A DNA stretch of 64,000 nucleotides from Bacteroidota bacterium. Its GTDB lineage: Bacteria; Bacteroidota; Bacteroidia; M30B66. The position numbers and the translations under genes were made by a program. Below the pieces are notes generated by a model that made no database searches, was not told the origin of the DNA, and saw nothing but the letters and a program-made list of their open reading frames with translations. The DNA lies in NCBI GenBank assembly GCA_027483445.1, contig JAIXUS010000001.1, positions 1 to 64,000 on the forward strand. The letters run 5' to 3'. Of the stretch, positions 37,883-46,466 are shown in pieces (position 1 is the first letter of the stretch; every line of letters starts with the position of its first letter).

Positions 37883-38796
37883 GGTTTCGATGGGCTCAGC
37901 AGAAATTCAATGATAATATCGAGGCGGGCATTCCAACTGGCTTCATTATGTCCTGCCCCTTCAAATGTTTTGGAAATCAGCGTGCCGGCTTTGAATTTCT
38001 TTTTCATCAACATGGCATCTACTTGTTTTTGCCATTGTGGATACCAGGCATCTAACTGAGTAGTTCCGAGGTCGAAATACAATCGGTAATTGGGAGTTAT
38101 TGGAATATTTTCCTCCATCCATTTTTGAATAGCAGCCGGAATTTCTCCGGTATTAAACTTTAAGCTACTGGGCCAATGGGTTGAAATACACGCTGCTGCA
38201 GAAAATAGGTCGGGCCGCTTCACTAAAGTGTACATCGAAATAAGTCCGCCCATGCTGGATCCGGCTAAAAATCGGGATTCCCGATTGGCTTCCGTTCTAA
38301 ACTCCTTGTCGACGCGGGGAATTAACTCTTCAGTAAGAAACCTAAGGTATTGCCTCGACATCGGTACTCCGCCACGTTCGGCACTGAGCGCATTTTTAAT
38401 CGAATCTTCGAGTGCAAAAAATGGCTCCTCCGGCATGTATTCCCTAAATCTTTTGGGGCTGTTCCAGATACCCACAACGATTGCCGGCTTTATTCTTTTT
38501 TCAGCGATGAGTTTAGCCATCCATTCATCAACGCCCCATTCAACACCTCCGTAAGAAAGGGCACTATCGAAGAGGTTTTGGCCATCCTGAAAATACAAAA
38601 CTGGAAAGCGTGAATTAGGATTCTCCTCATATTCACGAGGAAGCCATATATCAATGTTTCTCGCTTCAACAAATTCCGAAGTCCACTGAGCCCATCGAAC
38701 GAGTGTACCTGAACTCACCTTCGGAACTTCCTCAATTTGTGCACTGAGCATAGCTTGTGCGAAGATTATCCAACCAACAGGAAAAAGCCATTTCAT
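37879..38796 (-). CDS. Exported esterase (esterase-D-type alpha/beta hydrolase)
   Basis: The 305-residue protein has a signal peptide (about 1-19) and a PF00756-like hydrolase fold. It shows YFQDGQNLF near residue 68, the nucleophile elbow AGSSMGG (Ser181) and a likely His in GAGHNEASW near 285. It is related to the T9SS esterase at 18913-20307 but has neither the starch-binding-like nor the sorting domain, so it probably stays in the periplasm. Substrate unknown. First gene of the esterase-tspO-nuclease unit. Confidence 0.85.
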   Translation of the reverse strand: MKWLFPVGWIIFAQAMLSAQIEEVPKVSSGTLVRWAQWTSEFVEARNIDIWLPREYEENPNSRFPVLYFQDGQNLFDSALSYGGVEWGVDEWMAKLIAEKRIKPAIVVGIWNSPKRFREYMPEEPFFALEDSIKNALSAERGGVPMSRQYLRFLTEELIPRVDKEFRTEANRESRFLAGSSMGGLISMYTLVKRPDLFSAAACISTHWPSSLKFNTGEIPAAIQKWMEENIPITPNYRLYFDLGTTQLDAWYPQWQKQVDAMLMKKKFKAGTLISKTFEGAGHNEASWNARLDIIIEFLLSPSKP

Positions 38797-38818
38797 GCCG
38801 AAAAGGTACGAAATGACA

Positions 38819-39283
38819 TCAAAGTACTTGCTCTACACGCAGCGAATTCTGTGGTTGAGGTACTGTTTCACCAACCCTTTTGCCTTTTAGAAGCGTAAAT
38901 AGTGGTGCATCGGCAGAAATACACATTACTTTTGAGGTTGGAGTGCTTAATGCACCTTCGGGTATACCGATAAAAATCCAGTTCTCTCCCAGTTTTACCA
39001 AGCTTCCGGCCTGTATGGTTTCGCTTGATACATTGCTTTGCTTTAAACGAAGCAGCATAATTTCCTTGTTCCTCAACTCGGTCAATTGTTGCATCAATTG
39101 CCGTTCTTCCTGGGCCAGCATTTCTCTACTGGTCTCGAACTTATCGCCCGCGCTGCTTTTTGAATCGCCTTCCTTACTCTCTGAAATTCCGCGTAAATCC
39201 CGCTCTAATTGCGCCATTTTTAATCGGAGTTTTTCCTCCAATAACTGGTAAATCTCGCTTTTAAATGGATGAATTTCAGACAC
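38819..39283 (-). CDS. GreA/GreB C-terminal-domain-like protein
   Basis: The 154-residue protein starts at a GTG. An N-terminal coiled-coil-like stretch (about 10-80) has the family-typical SSAGDKFETSREM, and a small beta domain follows (about 90-145, GSLVKLGENWIFIG). Such proteins are often labelled GreA/GreB family or misnamed 3-oxoacyl-ACP synthase in Bacteroidota. Transcript-cleavage activity cannot be assumed. The GTG at 39283 is preferred over a TTG 15 bases upstream, which lies inside a TTTG-ending promoter-like box. Confidence 0.72.
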   Translation of the reverse strand: MSEIHPFKSEIYQLLEEKLRLKMAQLERDLRGISESKEGDSKSSAGDKFETSREMLAQEERQLMQQLTELRNKEIMLLRLKQSNVSSETIQAGSLVKLGENWIFIGIPEGALSTPTSKVMCISADAPLFTLLKGKRVGETVPQPQNSLRVEQVL

Positions 39284-39350
39284 GGTTTCGAAAAGCAAAG
39301 CTCAAGCGATTCAATGCATCGCTCAATTTTTTGACATAATTACAAATGCT

Positions 39351-39998
39351 TTATCGCTTATGCAAAAATCGAACGCTCCAATTCGGTGAAATGAGCGAAT
39401 AAATCCCGTCACTTTCGGCCGACAAGTCAATACTCATCTGATTGCCAAGGCATTGAATTTCCTTTATTTTTCGACCTTGAGAATCCAGCAATTGCCCGCT
39501 TAGTTTGGGTATGGCTTCTTTAAACTGCAAGACATAATTCCCATTTCCCAGGTTTTGCAGTGTGTATTCTTGCTTGAGCGGAACAATGGCTGTTGGTGAG
39601 GGTTGAACGAAGAAAAACAGGGTATCGCTGCTCGAAAAACTCGGTATATTGATGTCGGTTAGTGTAGTGTTGATTTGGTATAATTCAAAAACGCCCGGAC
39701 TGATTTCCTGAGATGGTGGAAGAATTCCAAGGCTTATGGTATCAACACTTTCACAAATTACCGTGAGAAATCCAACAGCGTAACGGGCATTTACCTTAAT
39801 TATTGGCAGTGAATCCAAGTCTACTTCCGCCGAATCTAATTCGCAACCGCCCGAGACCCAGGTTGCCTGGATTACTAAAGAAACAGGCTCACCTTCAATC
39901 GGCTGCTCAGGAATTAGGCTCAGTACTTGAGTTTGCGCGTTGGTCTTTGCAAATCCCAACAAACAACACATGGAGAGTATCAGAAATTGTGCTTTCAT
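39351..39998 (-). CDS. Secreted protein with probable T9SS-type tail, third gene of the sigma-factor operon
   Basis: The 215-residue protein has a signal peptide (about 1-21, ending TNAQ). An Ig-like beta region follows (about 25-130) with a Cys pair (GGCELDS, VICESVD). A C-terminal region (about 142-215) resembles a type A sorting domain (LLDSQGRKIKEI, SDGIYSLIS, ending in basic residues) but is shorter than usual. Its start overlaps the preceding gene by 4 bases. Function unknown; co-expression with a sigma factor and an outer-membrane-type protein suggests a surface component of that system. Confidence 0.65.
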   Translation of the reverse strand: MKAQFLILSMCCLLGFAKTNAQTQVLSLIPEQPIEGEPVSLVIQATWVSGGCELDSAEVDLDSLPIIKVNARYAVGFLTVICESVDTISLGILPPSQEISPGVFELYQINTTLTDINIPSFSSSDTLFFFVQPSPTAIVPLKQEYTLQNLGNGNYVLQFKEAIPKLSGQLLDSQGRKIKEIQCLGNQMSIDLSAESDGIYSLISPNWSVRFLHKR

Positions 39999-41614
39999 GG
40001 TTTTTGGGTAATAGGAATACCCAAACCTAATGAAATTCCCACACTTGAGTAACGACTATTTAAACCCGATGCATTTTGAAAAACCGAGTTGAGCATGCCA
40101 CGGTATTCTGCTTGGGCAAACACCGAAATACCATTGATGAAGGCGTAATCGAATCGAAGTCCACCCCGGAAATTCCAGAGTATACGTTGTAGATTCTCCG
40201 CTTCTTCAAGTCGTAAAAAAGCTGTATTGTTTGGGTTCAACATAAATCCGGATGCACCTTGCAGGAATGCTGCTGAAATACCGGCTTGAATCCTTAGATT
40301 AAATCTTTTATGATTCATCAGGCGATAGCCAATGCTTACCGGAATTTCAAAATACCGATATCTGTTTCTGCCATTGCTGTAGCCATCCGGCAAATTGCCG
40401 GCAACGGTTCCTGCAACCTTTAAGGTGTCTTGTGTAATTAAGGTATCGCTCACCACTTCGATTACCGACTCCGTAAACTCATTGCCCAAATAATAGTTGA
40501 AACGTGTGCTCAATAAGCTGTCGGAGACGATTTGCTGACCATTTTGAAGGGTAGTAACCAATCCATCAACCCAATTGTTGTATTGTGTTTTTTCTCCATA
40601 ACTGCTTAATTCAATTCCCGAGTTAAACCGCCAGTTTCCAAGCGATTTGCTGATTTGTAGTGAATGAATCCAACTTAAATCTGCACGCTCTTCATTACTT
40701 CTTCGGTTTTGATAGGTTGTTGTACCACCGAAATGTCGAGCTTGATGGTAAAATAATCCTGACCGAACCTCTACATAAGTTGCAGAGTTTCTCAATTTGC
40801 TTTGAGATTTAATCGATTCAATTGGCGAACCCGAAATCAACTCTTGTGGATTTTTTTCGGAGAGGAAATTCAGCGGAAATAAGTTTTCAATTTCTGGCGC
40901 AGTAATTCGCTCGCCGGTTTTATTGGCTTGGTTTCCACCGCTATTCTTCGCATTAATTTCTGCAAGATTGCTGTTAGCCGCTATGGAAGAGTTATTGTTC
41001 TTGCCTGTGTTTAAAAGATTTTCGGGTTTTTCAATACGCGTATTCTGATTTACAATAACAGGTTCGTTTGCTTTGTTGCCCGCATACAACGCTTCTTTTT
41101 CAGGCCCGCTCTGTGAAACTGAATTCGGTAATTTACTTGTATTTTGTGGCTTTGCAGTTTCAGACCATTTCTTGGTATTTAATTTTTTACCCTCGCTCTT
41201 AATTCCAGGGCTTTTCTGATTTTCAACTTCCGGTGCTGAATCAGATGCTTGGTTTACATTGGCAATAGGCGTGGTTTCTTTCTTTAGTGTAGGAGTATTT
41301 TGAGACTTATTATCGGCATTGAAATTTTGACGGTTTTCAAGCTTAGTCTCTTCTTGTGTGGCGCTATATTTAGGGGTTTCAGTTGGGTTTGATTGCTCAG
41401 CATTCTTTGTTTTTGACACTGAGCTTGTTTGAAATACCGAAAGTGTGAGTTCTTCCCGATTAAAAAGGAAAACTACAACCGCGCTTGTAACCACGAGTGC
41501 TGCTGCAACCAACGAATAACGGATGATTCGCTTACGTCGAAAATGCGCATCGAGCATTTGCTCCGCATCCGGCCAAAAATCCTTGGCATTGAATTGATCT
41601 TTATATTCAGTCAT
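39995..41614 (-). CDS. Envelope-spanning protein: cytoplasmic N-terminus, one TM helix, C-terminal beta-barrel-like domain
   Basis: The 539-residue protein begins with a short polar region (FNAKDFWPDAEQMLDAHF), then one membrane helix (about 30-52). A long low-complexity linker rich in Asn, Lys, Glu and Thr follows (about 55-290). The C-terminal domain (about 300-539) consists of alternating amphipathic strands typical of outer-membrane barrels (YVEVRSGLFYHQARHFG, FFAQAEYRG-like strands, SSVGISLGLGIPI). Its start overlaps the sigma factor gene by 8 bases. A role as anti-sigma or signal transducer is inferred from position only. The 44-codon upstream extension overlaps the sigma gene and is rejected. 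Confidence 0.75.
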   Translation of the reverse strand: MTEYKDQFNAKDFWPDAEQMLDAHFRRKRIIRYSLVAAALVVTSAVVVFLFNREELTLSVFQTSSVSKTKNAEQSNPTETPKYSATQEETKLENRQNFNADNKSQNTPTLKKETTPIANVNQASDSAPEVENQKSPGIKSEGKKLNTKKWSETAKPQNTSKLPNSVSQSGPEKEALYAGNKANEPVIVNQNTRIEKPENLLNTGKNNNSSIAANSNLAEINAKNSGGNQANKTGERITAPEIENLFPLNFLSEKNPQELISGSPIESIKSQSKLRNSATYVEVRSGLFYHQARHFGGTTTYQNRRSNEERADLSWIHSLQISKSLGNWRFNSGIELSSYGEKTQYNNWVDGLVTTLQNGQQIVSDSLLSTRFNYYLGNEFTESVIEVVSDTLITQDTLKVAGTVAGNLPDGYSNGRNRYRYFEIPVSIGYRLMNHKRFNLRIQAGISAAFLQGASGFMLNPNNTAFLRLEEAENLQRILWNFRGGLRFDYAFINGISVFAQAEYRGMLNSVFQNASGLNSRYSSVGISLGLGIPITQKP

Positions 41615-42176
41615 GGCTTCCAATTTTTTGCTTTTGCAAGGACAATTGCAATTTCTGTCTTGCCTTGAAAAGATGAACTTTTGAGGTGTTTGCGGAAATA
41701 TTAAGCATTTCACCGATTTCTTCGTGCTTGTATCCTTCAATGGCATAAAGATTAAATACTGCTCTGCTCATTTCCGGAAGGGCATCAATACTGTTTTGTA
41801 TCGCCTCTTTTTCGTATTTGTCAAATCCATTATCTGATATTCCTTCGTATTTTTTAATTATATCCTGCTCTTCCTCCAATTGAATTTTCTCCAGATATTT
41901 TTTTTGTTTTCTAAATTCATCAATAATGCATCTAAGGGTAATTTTTCGCATCCAGCTGTAAAATAAGGCATCGTCGTAATTTTTAGTAATCAATTCCAGC
42001 CCTTTTATCATATTTAAAAAGCTGGTATTTACAATTGACCGAATGTCATCTTCGTTTTTAAAATACTGGCGGGTAATATTAATTAAATCCTGAAAGCACC
42101 ACTCATACAGCGCAAAATGAGCCTTGCGGTCATTCTGCCTGCATTGCTTTAACAGCGAAAGTGGTGGGTTTTTCAT
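41607..42176 (-). CDS. ECF-type RNA polymerase sigma-70 factor
   Basis: The protein (189 residues from ATG 42176) has sigma region 2 (about 22-95; FYSWMRKITLRCIIDEFRKQKKY) and region 4 (about 125-180). Region 4 carries LPEMSRAVFNLYAIEGYKHEEIGEMLNIS and the recognition helix TSKVHLFKARQKLQ. There is no region 1 or 3. It directs transcription of a specific regulon, probably tied to the co-transcribed TM/barrel protein downstream. It is separated from the upstream PKD gene by a terminator, so it likely has its own promoter. Confidence 0.92.
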   Translation of the reverse strand: MKNPPLSLLKQCRQNDRKAHFALYEWCFQDLINITRQYFKNEDDIRSIVNTSFLNMIKGLELITKNYDDALFYSWMRKITLRCIIDEFRKQKKYLEKIQLEEEQDIIKKYEGISDNGFDKYEKEAIQNSIDALPEMSRAVFNLYAIEGYKHEEIGEMLNISANTSKVHLFKARQKLQLSLQKQKIGSHD

Positions 42177-42181
42177 ACAAT

Positions 42182-42213
42182 AAAAAAAGTCTCCCGGCAA
42201 AACCGGGAGACTC
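42182..42213 (-). terminator. Terminator of the PKD T9SS gene
   Basis: On the minus strand GAGTCTCCCGG and CCGGGAGACT form a strong stem around a TTTTG loop, followed by a run of T's (A's at 42182-42188 on the plus strand). Confidence 0.88.
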
Positions 42214-42224
42214 ATTAAAGGCAA

Positions 42225-43940
42225 TTATTGTTTTACAATTTTCTGCACACTGCGAGCGCCTGATTTTTCAGTCAAATTAAGCAAGTAAATACCGGCATTT
42301 AATTGTTCTGTAGAAAGCACCGCGTTTCCATTGAGCAGAGCTCCTTGAAGAACCAGTCTGCCATCGAGGCTAAATACTTCGTACTGAGCAGCATTTGCAT
42401 TGGTAATCATAACGCTGTTGTTGAATGGATTCGGGAACACAAGGGTTTCCACTTTGTCATCAGGCTTTGCCGATGTAACAAAACCAGTAACTTCCTGCGG
42501 ACTAACAACATTGATTACAAAGCCTTCAGCAGCGCGGCGTCCGCCCCACAAACCATTTTCATCGATTACCAATGAATCGCAGTAAGTTGAGGTGCAGTTT
42601 GGAGAAGTTACGGTTAAACACAAGGTATATGCGCCGGTTGCTTCTACCAAAATTTCAGGGTAAGCGCCTTGAGCAGTGATCGATACGCCATTTCCGGTTA
42701 ATGTCCAGCTAAAGCTCAAATCGTTGCCAGAGCTGCCGTTTACCACCAATACTTCGAACGGACTGTCTTGTGTGATTACGTATTGAGCATTGCAAAGTGA
42801 ATCGCTGATGACAGGCATAACGTCATCAATAACAATGGTTTGACATTGATTTTGGAAGCAATTCGCAGCCGATACCAACAAGCAAACTTCATAAGTTCCC
42901 GGTGCGTCATAAACGTGGTAAGCGTATGGGCCGGTACCTGTTTGACCATCACCATAATCCCAGCTATACGAAGTGCCAGGAGTCCAGGTGTTTCCGAGCG
43001 CTACAAAATACCCGGTAAGTGGCGAGGAGGAAGCGAAGAAGTCGGCGTTACAATCTGCCGGCGGCGGAGTGCAAGGGTAAGGCAATACACACAATTGATT
43101 ATTGAAAACAAAGTGAATAAAAACTTCTTGCGAAGGAGCCCACTGCTCGTTCGGTAGCACATTTACATCGTAAGTTGCAACAGTTCCGCCGATTTGACCA
43201 AAAAGGTTCATATTACCAGTCGCAATGGTGTCTCCAGCTAAATTAGTTACAAACGCAGCGTAAGGGTAATTGATAAAATCATTCGGGCCTCCGGTAAACG
43301 AAATCGAGATTGATGCTGCTGTAAGTGAGGGATTTAACGCCACATCAGTAGCACAGAACAATGAACAGTCAATCTGAGGATTTATAACTGTATCCTGATA
43401 AACAAATACTTGCACGCAATTATCGCAGGTAAAGCCGCCACCGGTAATGTTTGCGCACACTGTGTAAGTTCCGGGAGTGGTGTAGGTATGGCTTACATCA
43501 AATCCTGAAGCTGTATTGCCGTCGCCAAAATTCCAAGTGGCCGGGTAATTGGCGCCAGGAATTGTAAACGAGAATTCTGTTCCGGAAAACTGCTCAATGG
43601 CAATTGGACAGGCACTTTGATTTCCACCACCTTGAATTACAACAACTTGGTTTGAGCTACACACCAAATTACTATCGGGCAAGGCTTGGAAAATACTCAG
43701 TTGAATGTTATCGGTAACAGGCTGATTATAAGTAAACGACACCTGTGAGCCGTTCAAAAAATTCTGACCATTGTTTACCGACCAAAAAAACAGGTGCGCA
43801 TTAGGGTCAAAATTGTTTACCGGCGCAAAAAGCGTGATGGTGTTCGTGTTTGTGTCGAGCTGAAAGCTAAAGTTACAGTTCTGAGCTTTGGCCGCACTCA
43901 TTCCAATGAGCACCGTCAAAAGGAGAAGTAGTTTTTTCAT
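42225..43940 (-). CDS. PKD-domain protein with T9SS sorting domain
   Basis: The 571-residue protein has a signal peptide (1-20). At least two clear PKD domains follow (about 112-180, ATWNFGDGNTASG and HTYTTPGTYTV; about 295-375, YSWDYGDGQTG and YDAPGTYEVCL), with a weaker third around 390-455. A type A sorting domain (about 495-571) carries FPNPFNN and AGIYLLNL. It is a surface or secreted protein with no catalytic motif. It ends at a strong terminator just before the sigma factor operon, so the two are separate units. Confidence 0.85.
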   Translation of the reverse strand: MKKLLLLLTVLIGMSAAKAQNCNFSFQLDTNTNTITLFAPVNNFDPNAHLFFWSVNNGQNFLNGSQVSFTYNQPVTDNIQLSIFQALPDSNLVCSSNQVVVIQGGGNQSACPIAIEQFSGTEFSFTIPGANYPATWNFGDGNTASGFDVSHTYTTPGTYTVCANITGGGFTCDNCVQVFVYQDTVINPQIDCSLFCATDVALNPSLTAASISISFTGGPNDFINYPYAAFVTNLAGDTIATGNMNLFGQIGGTVATYDVNVLPNEQWAPSQEVFIHFVFNNQLCVLPYPCTPPPADCNADFFASSSPLTGYFVALGNTWTPGTSYSWDYGDGQTGTGPYAYHVYDAPGTYEVCLLVSAANCFQNQCQTIVIDDVMPVISDSLCNAQYVITQDSPFEVLVVNGSSGNDLSFSWTLTGNGVSITAQGAYPEILVEATGAYTLCLTVTSPNCTSTYCDSLVIDENGLWGGRRAAEGFVINVVSPQEVTGFVTSAKPDDKVETLVFPNPFNNSVMITNANAAQYEVFSLDGRLVLQGALLNGNAVLSTEQLNAGIYLLNLTEKSGARSVQKIVKQ

Positions 43941-44094
43941 AGTTTATGTATTGAGTTCGCTTGGGTACACGTGGCTACTCAACGAATGGTTTACCAGCCA
44001 CAAAATTATTTTTCGGTAAAGTTATAAATAAATGAAAATGTGAGAATTGTAAATATAATCTAATCGCTTTCCCCACAATTCGCCATTTTTTTCG

Positions 44095-44362
44095 GGGCGC
44101 CTGCCTCGCTAAGCATCTCGTGTTACTGAGGCTGCCTCGCCGGGCACCGCGTGTTTCGCTCATACTCCGCAAAACAGAGCCGCCATCGCGCTGCTTTCCG
44201 CCTGCGCTCACCTAAACACGCTCTTCCCTCTCGCTCTCACTCCCACACTCACTCTGTTTTGCGGGGTATCCGCTGCACCCGCATGGCGCGAAAATCAGGA
44301 AAAAGGCGAAAGGTCAAAGGTTAAAGGGTGTAACTTGCCGTTGACTTCGAGAGTTACTTTTC
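44095..44362 (+). repeat. Dispersed hairpin repeat, copy C (core)
   Basis: It opens with GGGCGCCTGCC (44095-44105) and continues through the core CGGGCACCGCG (44141). GCAAAACAGAG (44169-44179) and CTCTGTTTTGC (44252-44262) then bracket a CTCTCACTC-rich loop, followed by GGGGTATCCGCTGCACCCGC. After the core, 44284-44350 matches copy A on the other strand nearly base for base. The stretch 43941-44094 is the upstream region of the PKD gene and shows nothing else. Confidence 0.85.
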
Positions 44363-44780
44363 CATTGATAAGCTCCGTTCTAACGTGCAGTATCGTCCCC
44401 CTGAATGTCAGAGTGAGTTTGAGAGCGAGAGCGATTTCTACAGTGTAAAAGACATCTCCCACTCACCAATAAATTCCGTTGTACCGTAAAGCATCGTCTC
44501 TCTCTCGCGGAGAGAGACAGGTAAATTCAAAGTGAGAGTGTAGAGCGAGAGCGATTCACGTCATTGATGATATCTTTCTTTCACTAATAAGTCCCGTTTT
44601 ACCGCGAAGTATCATCTCTCTCCCGCGGAGAGAGACAGGAGAGAGAGGTAAATTCAAAGTGAGAGTGTAGAGCGAGAGCGATTCACGTCATTGATGATCT
44701 CTTTCTTTCACTAATAAGTCCCGTTTTACCGCGAAGTATCATCTCTCTCCCGCGGAGAGAGACAGGAGAGAGAGGTAAAT
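44363..44780 (+). repeat. Tandem repeat array attached to copy C, abutting the ettA stop codon
   Basis: About four head-to-tail units begin near 44364, 44465, 44583 and 44710, with periods of 101, 118 and 127 bp. Each unit carries AATAAGTCCCGTTTTACCGC (or a variant), then a hairpin of CTCTCTCC-CGC-GGAGAGAG, then a GTGAGAGTGTAGAGCGAGAG tract. The last two units are nearly identical, so they are the youngest. The 9-base difference between units is a GAGAGAGAG insertion. The array runs directly into the ettA stop codon. Confidence 0.85.

Positions 44781-46466
<1,686 letters not shown>

Follow-up and report, generated by a model that had tools for sequence, protein, structure and literature searches.

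The window, a 64,000-nucleotide stretch of contig JAIXUS010000001.1 from a Bacteroidota bacterium of the order M30B66, whose positions are used throughout, carries on its minus strand four genes in a row, encoding in order a secreted PKD-domain protein with a type IX secretion system (T9SS) sorting domain, an extracytoplasmic function (ECF) sigma factor, a 539-residue protein of the Dma kind, and a secreted protein of 215 residues. The head gene (42,225–43,940; 571 residues), whose type A sorting domain was recognised with Pfam and NCBIfam, is conserved just upstream of the sigma gene and had been left out of the preliminary description of this DNA. Twenty-seven nucleotides before its ATG stands a promoter-like element of ECF type, GTAAACC-N16-CGTG (43,968–43,994), and directly before the sigma start codon a terminator scan placed a hairpin with a T-run (42,180–42,213), terminator-like and possibly an attenuator. 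The sigma gene (41,607–42,176) encodes 189 residues from its ATG, the mechanical open reading frame (ORF) offering a further TTG start upstream at 42,224, and its reading as a sigma factor, already made in the preliminary description, is borne out, with assignment to the ECF type, by alignment and by matches to Sigma70_r4_2 (2.3e-14), Sigma70_ECF (4.8e-11), and TIGR02937 (1.1e-19). The Dma gene (39,995–41,614) was taken to start at the ATG of MTEYKDQ, its open frame reaching further up to 41,746, and the last gene occupies 39,351–39,998; the reported overlaps of 8 nucleotides between the sigma and Dma genes and of 4 nucleotides between the Dma gene and the last one are both real.

The middle protein is, by its architecture, of the known, published Dma kind (PMC13088901, PMC9308784). 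In Dma proteins, an N-terminal anti-sigma domain is followed by a transmembrane helix, then by a tether that is long and disordered, and finally by a barrel at the C-terminus, with an ECF21 sigma factor adjoining, except in the case of Dma3; Dma1, Dma2, and Dma3 occur in Bacteroides thetaiotaomicron together with the Das sigma factors (PMC13088901). In the window, AlphaFold2 (with an 11-row alignment) gives a helix at residues 10–55, disorder at 52–273, where the predicted local distance difference test (pLDDT) stays below 50, and eight long strands at 278–537, mostly with a pLDDT of 85–97. The chain is thus read as a presumed cytoplasmic anti-sigma motif with Trp14 (residues 1–32; 41,519–41,614), marked by a conserved Trp column, an inner-membrane helix (residues 33–54; 41,453–41,518; hydropathy 2.41), a disordered periplasmic tether (residues 55–277; 40,784–41,452), and an 8-stranded outer-membrane barrel (residues 278–537; 40,004–40,783). 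The C-terminus is predicted to be an OmpA/OmpW-like barrel, since the modelled fold aligns with OprF (Z 17.6, 2.3 Å, 132 residues), NspA (Z 17.4, 3.4 Å, 153), OmpW (Z 16.7, 3.1 Å, 174), and OmpA 1bxw (Z 16.0, 3.3 Å, 167), these values coming from VIA-align, which re-ranked Foldseek's own matches only, the Foldseek list alone being noisy. At the level of sequence, Pfam OMP_b-brl_2 stayed below threshold (19.8 bits against a cut-off of 27), and a PDB sequence search with a Dma profile returned two weak matches (E 0.0097 and 0.32), neither of them a barrel. Three strand-to-strand turns of the model are of 2–3 residues and four connections are long, which, with both termini periplasmic, would fit an N-terminal inner-membrane helix. 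The model and the fold comparison therefore support the single chain of short N-terminus, one inner-membrane helix, low-complexity tether, and outer-membrane barrel that had been proposed from the letters, and the soluble C-terminal domain that had been named as the contrary outcome is not predicted.

Among 62 sigma-paired Dma proteins, the window's included, the tether measures 131–361 residues (median 189.5), with the helix of locus L031 (loci are numbered L, genomes G, contigs C, and families f) probably misplaced in that survey. The Trp14 column holds Trp in all 28 T9SS-linked Dma proteins and in 65 of the 71 remaining ones, a set that leaves aside the truncated proteins of L130 and L008, and in most relatives the Trp is preceded by a segment D..F...L that, by eye, is shortened in the window's order and in L138, L140, L149, L151, and L155. 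The Dma N-terminus of L031 carries the Trp motif in three tandem copies before the transmembrane helix, and that of L007/L087 seemingly, by eye, in two; possibly, such proteins offer several sigma-binding sites each. At the other end (39,995–40,018), the Dma proteins of the window and of its closest relative finish in Gln-Lys-Pro.

The pairing of sigma and barrel genes is widespread. A survey with profile A4 gave matches, not all of them Dma, in 83 of 395 genomes of the phylum, and the L019 Dma gave matches in 43 of 395 genomes of the class; both surveys, together with the window's relatives, provided the 107 loci studied here. In 101 of them, the window's among these, the barrel gene has a sigma gene directly upstream, the remaining loci being L084, L086, L136, L162, L168, and L169, so that the pairing is not due to chance. 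As to repeated entries, L088 and L089 were dropped as duplicates of L017 and L018, L014 and L120 are the G004 locus that is also present as L002, L012/L130 and L008/L131 are one place each, and L004 and L016 are one place in G007 that is cut by a contig end and stands outside the gene-order count. Dma has been described as restricted to Bacteroidota, and the only contig outside that phylum, by its title, is that of L020, titled Chlorobiota, a title that may be wrong; there, a T9SS-tail gene follows the sigma–Dma pair.

The conserved partner of the sigma–Dma pair is the upstream T9SS gene and not the third gene of the preliminary description. In the window, the upstream protein matches PF18911 (6.9e-28), PF18962 (3.8e-10), and TIGR04183 (1.5e-12), the last with 47.3 bits against a cut-off of 23, which identifies it as a T9SS cargo; the secretion component SprA is present in all ten genomes of the order, the window's own included, and this genome has at least 150 T9SS-tail matches. 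All seven genomes of the order that have a sigma–Dma pair also have the T9SS gene and the promoter. Over the 101 sigma-bearing loci, with tails called by a purpose-built profile, a T9SS-tail gene stands directly upstream of sigma on the same strand in 30, with a gap of 17–121 nucleotides that falls within 45–73 in 25 of the 30. Seven of these linked loci belong to the window's order and one is L019; the other 22 come from a second sample of 39 loci (35 with sigma), which was picked for its resemblance to L019, a T9SS-linked locus itself. When the 101 sigma sequences are placed in a tree, all 30 fall into one clade of 37 (support 100/99), where they represent nine numbered families besides L019, against none of the 64 sequences outside it. 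Fisher values were given no weight here, since they count related loci as independent. As background, T9SS tails are carried by 21 of the 174 other genes in linked loci and, in the remaining loci, by 27 of 709. Fifteen of the 30 upstream cargos were scanned: the Pfam sorting domain passes its threshold in every one, and PKD domains occur in 14, the exception being L163. The linkage is not a general feature of Dma, since none of the 56 sigma-bearing loci among L030–L087 has a T9SS gene upstream. A different arrangement, with the T9SS-tail gene directly downstream of Dma and not upstream of sigma, is seen in L020, L021, L037, L059, L145, L146, L147, L152, and L160, mostly on other sigma branches.

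The third gene had been presented together with the pair, and its product does seem to be secreted, judging by eye from a signal-peptide-like start; as a conserved part of the system it fails, because among the order's ten genomes it is confined to two, the window's own and G004, in both of which it adjoins the pair. Over 60 genomes it has matches in seven (its own, G004, and five distant ones), and we dismiss it as a core part and regard it as a lineage-specific accessory. The tail of the 215-residue protein is T9SS-like in a degenerate form: it scores 16.9 bits on PF18962 against a cut-off of 27, and the purpose-built T9SS profile gives E 5e-7 with just two sequences searched. Its AlphaFold2 model is poor, with a mean pLDDT of 45.7.

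The promoter-like motif GTAAACC-N16-CGTG was found by aligning the upstream regions of four members of the order. Ungapped identity is 1.00 at the motif, compared with 0.41 for the spacer and with 0.40 and 0.44 for the upstream and downstream flanks. The window has this one exact match, and with up to two mismatches 13 matches against 13.5 expected. When spacers N13 to N19 were searched in the ten genomes of the order, the 58 matches were distributed, by hand count, as 11, 6, 6, 16, 8, 4, and 7; of the 16 exact N16 matches, seven lie before the PKD gene, eight inside ORFs, and one before an unrelated gene. Those seven are found 25–51 nucleotides ahead of the gene, one in each locus-bearing genome, and three of them had not been used to define the motif; in G004 the match and the sigma gene are on different contigs. 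The shorter form AAC-N17-CGT is present in 20 of 29 regions of 160 nucleotides upstream of linked T9SS genes, a set without L002, as compared with 0–3 at ten other spacings and with about 2.4% of 205 control upstream regions taken from these loci, and outside the window's order it precedes 15 of 23 cargo genes, again against 0–3 at other spacings. The form AACC-N16-CGTG precedes 16 of 28 cargo genes (here both L002 and the mis-started L008 are set aside) and stands before sigma in none of the 30 linked and two of the 71 other loci. We also considered that the same promoter might precede sigma in loci lacking the T9SS gene, and rejected it, given that AACC-N16-CGT occurs there in just three of 71 (L075, L171, and L172). 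Longer lineage forms, searched with spacers of 13–19 in 11 other genomes, gave 13 matches, all with N16 and each ahead of a T9SS-tail gene: 12 sit at the locus, three of them at second cargo genes of family f8, and one lies elsewhere in G588; four of the 13 sites were new. Independent support for the motif thus comes from three loci of the window's order, 15 of 23 loci outside it, and four extra genomic sites.

Two arrangements of these sites deserve mention in their own right. In L148, L157, and L164, two tandem T9SS cargo genes precede the sigma–Dma pair, each with its own ACCCAACC-N16-CGTGTA site. The G588 site (L187, on contig C345) precedes a T9SS-tail gene with no sigma or Dma match within the surrounding 10 kb, which, going by the shared motif, is likely a trans target.

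Between cargo and sigma, the window hairpin has a minimum free energy of −21.6 kcal/mol (z −6.4), and eight loci that were folded range from −19.7 to −24 kcal/mol (z −3.9 to −7.4). A hairpin of at least eight pairs ending 2–19 nucleotides before the sigma start is found in 25 of the 30 linked loci, L148, at chance level, among them, and in 17 linked loci the hairpin is followed by at least four T in eight nucleotides; with at least nine pairs, under the same 60-nucleotide rule, the count is 24 of 30 T9SS-linked loci against one of 71 others. Only 7 nucleotides separate the stem from the sigma start in the window, which leaves no space for a promoter between them. A search of Rfam over 38,700–44,700 found nothing at gathering score. 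Further upstream of the T9SS gene (44,463–44,781) lies a tandem repeat of period 127 in 2.1–2.5 copies, with 98% matches over 44,512–44,781.

The computed evidence, namely the predicted architecture, the conservation of gene order and of the promoter-like motif, the hairpin, and the genomic placement of the motif, leads us to regard it as likely that the four genes form an autoregulated operon centred on an anti-sigma factor of the Dma type, which releases its sigma factor to make a T9SS surface protein. We infer that Dma, through its short Trp-containing N-terminus, keeps the ECF sigma factor at the inner membrane and so inhibits it, while the disordered linker would cross the periplasm and the outer-membrane barrel would report on the cell surface. 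A change in the barrel or in the state of the envelope, which is what we take the signal to be, would release the sigma factor by proteolysis or by conformational change, and the freed sigma factor would transcribe from GTAAACC-N16-CGTG. The main product would be the upstream T9SS-exported PKD surface protein, with sigma and Dma made by read-through past an attenuating hairpin, so that little regulator would be produced per surface protein.

Several observations weigh against this operon, and we set them out together. Of the 37 loci in the sigma clade, seven have no T9SS gene directly upstream, two of these having one after Dma. In the ten order genomes a backward control pattern matched more often than the motif itself, and therefore the short motif is not enriched genome-wide; moreover, it was defined on loci of the window's order, and the long forms on loci already seen, so that most such matches hold by construction. 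AAC-N17-CGT also stands before sigma in two of 30 linked and seven of 71 other loci, precedes none of ten T9SS-tail genes downstream of Dma, and is missing before nine of 29 T9SS genes, in L008 and probably in L144 owing to a wrong start, while the match of L150 seemingly lies inside the preceding gene and is probably due to chance. When the region is widened (−250 to +150), other spacings reach up to 5 of 28 against 20 at N17, and the long form has no match in G673 and G555. As to the hairpin, none was found in L137, L141, L144, L150, and L165, that of L148 is at chance level (64 of 200 shuffles), and all six f8 hairpins lack a T-run, so that there it may be no terminator and its role may differ. 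Sigma may be fed not by read-through but by a promoter within the 3'-terminal part of the T9SS gene. Lastly, the window's Dma lacks the terminal Phe that is common in its relatives.

It is very improbable that the T9SS gene and the sigma–Dma pair are separate units brought together by chance or slow rearrangement, even if the hairpin between them in most loci and the abundance of T9SS genes (at least 150 matches in this genome) would suit such neighbours, because 30 of the 37 members of one sigma clade, from nine numbered families and L019, keep the arrangement, the gap stays at 45–73 nucleotides in 25 of 30, and the promoter motif precedes the T9SS gene and not sigma. More weight is due to an ordinary envelope-stress function, in which Dma senses damage to the outer membrane or lipopolysaccharide, a role proposed for the Phocaeicola member, and the T9SS protein is a protective product, not the sensed partner; we hold this to be a serious possibility that falls somewhat short of probable. 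In its favour, the pair of Phocaeicola vulgatus reacts to a toxin that damages the envelope and itself alters the length of the O-antigen (PMC9308784), and Dma1 and Dma2 affect vesiculation (PMC13088901), yet the 13 long-promoter sites, all before T9SS-tail genes and 12 of them at the locus itself, are narrow for a stress regulon, bearing in mind that exact motifs only were searched and that degenerate targets would escape. Alternatively, the barrel may directly sense the T9SS PKD protein, at the surface or stalled in export, and relay this along one unbroken chain to the sigma factor, which transcribes the cargo's own operon, with the regulators attenuated behind the hairpin, so that sigma output matches the surface load or the success of export. 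This we regard as rather doubtful. It agrees with the linkage of cargo, sigma, and Dma genes in one clade, and with cargos whose length and PKD number vary while the T9SS tail stays (PKD being found in 14 of 15 scanned), and it has a precedent in PorA, a surface T9SS-tail protein that acts upstream of SigP (PMC7712824). However, the barrel loops (0.32–0.40) are conserved no better than the strands (0.33–0.48) in the T9SS-linked set, and this by itself lends no support to a shared ligand.

The proposed operon has several relatives among known systems. In FecI-FecR-FecA, a signal passes from an outer-membrane barrel to an inner-membrane anti-sigma factor and an ECF sigma factor through a separate TonB-dependent receptor and FecR, in contrast to the one chain with an 8-stranded barrel of the window; the contrast with FecR/FecA drawn in the preliminary description is therefore apt in architecture, and a system of that type was discarded here on this ground, with no FecR or TonB-receptor match listed for the five proteins scanned (38,819–43,940). 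In Bacteroides fragilis, the anti-sigma factor of EcfO is named Reo. EcfO with its large downstream anti-sigma factor, and M0N98_03761/03760 of P. vulgatus, where an ECF sigma factor is followed by a large anti-sigma factor predicted to span the periplasm and to end in an outer-membrane barrel, share the basic layout but differ in their reported roles, in oxidative-stress and toxin response, and the available text does not mention a T9SS gene (PMC9308784). Dma1 and Dma2 of B. thetaiotaomicron have the same domain layout with an ECF sigma gene next door, and Dma2 lies in a three-gene operon that includes a protein of unknown function (PMC13088901); unlike these, the loci of the window and its clade begin with a T9SS cargo gene that has an ECF-type promoter of its own, a hairpin precedes sigma, and the N-terminus is short in the window's order and in some other families. 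PorA-PorXY-SigP of Porphyromonas gingivalis also has an ECF sigma factor acting downstream of a surface protein with a T9SS tail, but it works through a two-component relay, its sigma factor controls genes of the T9SS machinery, and Dma is not mentioned in the text available (PMC7712824). In F. psychrophilum, T9SS machinery genes and an ECF/anti-sigma pair are linked to a class of ECF-type promoters that contain a CGT box, a related theme in a different operon (PMC9723704). We found no report of an operon joining a T9SS cargo to Dma among the titles and starts of abstracts listed, a search that most subscription papers fell outside.

Dma proteins have been described from gut Bacteroides, where the sensed signal is poorly known, and a clade whose promoter and one-operon regulon are predicted, and which offers an obvious candidate ligand, makes the question of what Dma senses directly testable. 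Here and in many relatives, Dma appears coupled to an exported surface protein encoded at the head of the operon, and the cell may thereby gauge that very protein. If this is true, it would show how individual T9SS cargos, at least 150 of which are counted in this genome by their tails, can come under private feedback control.

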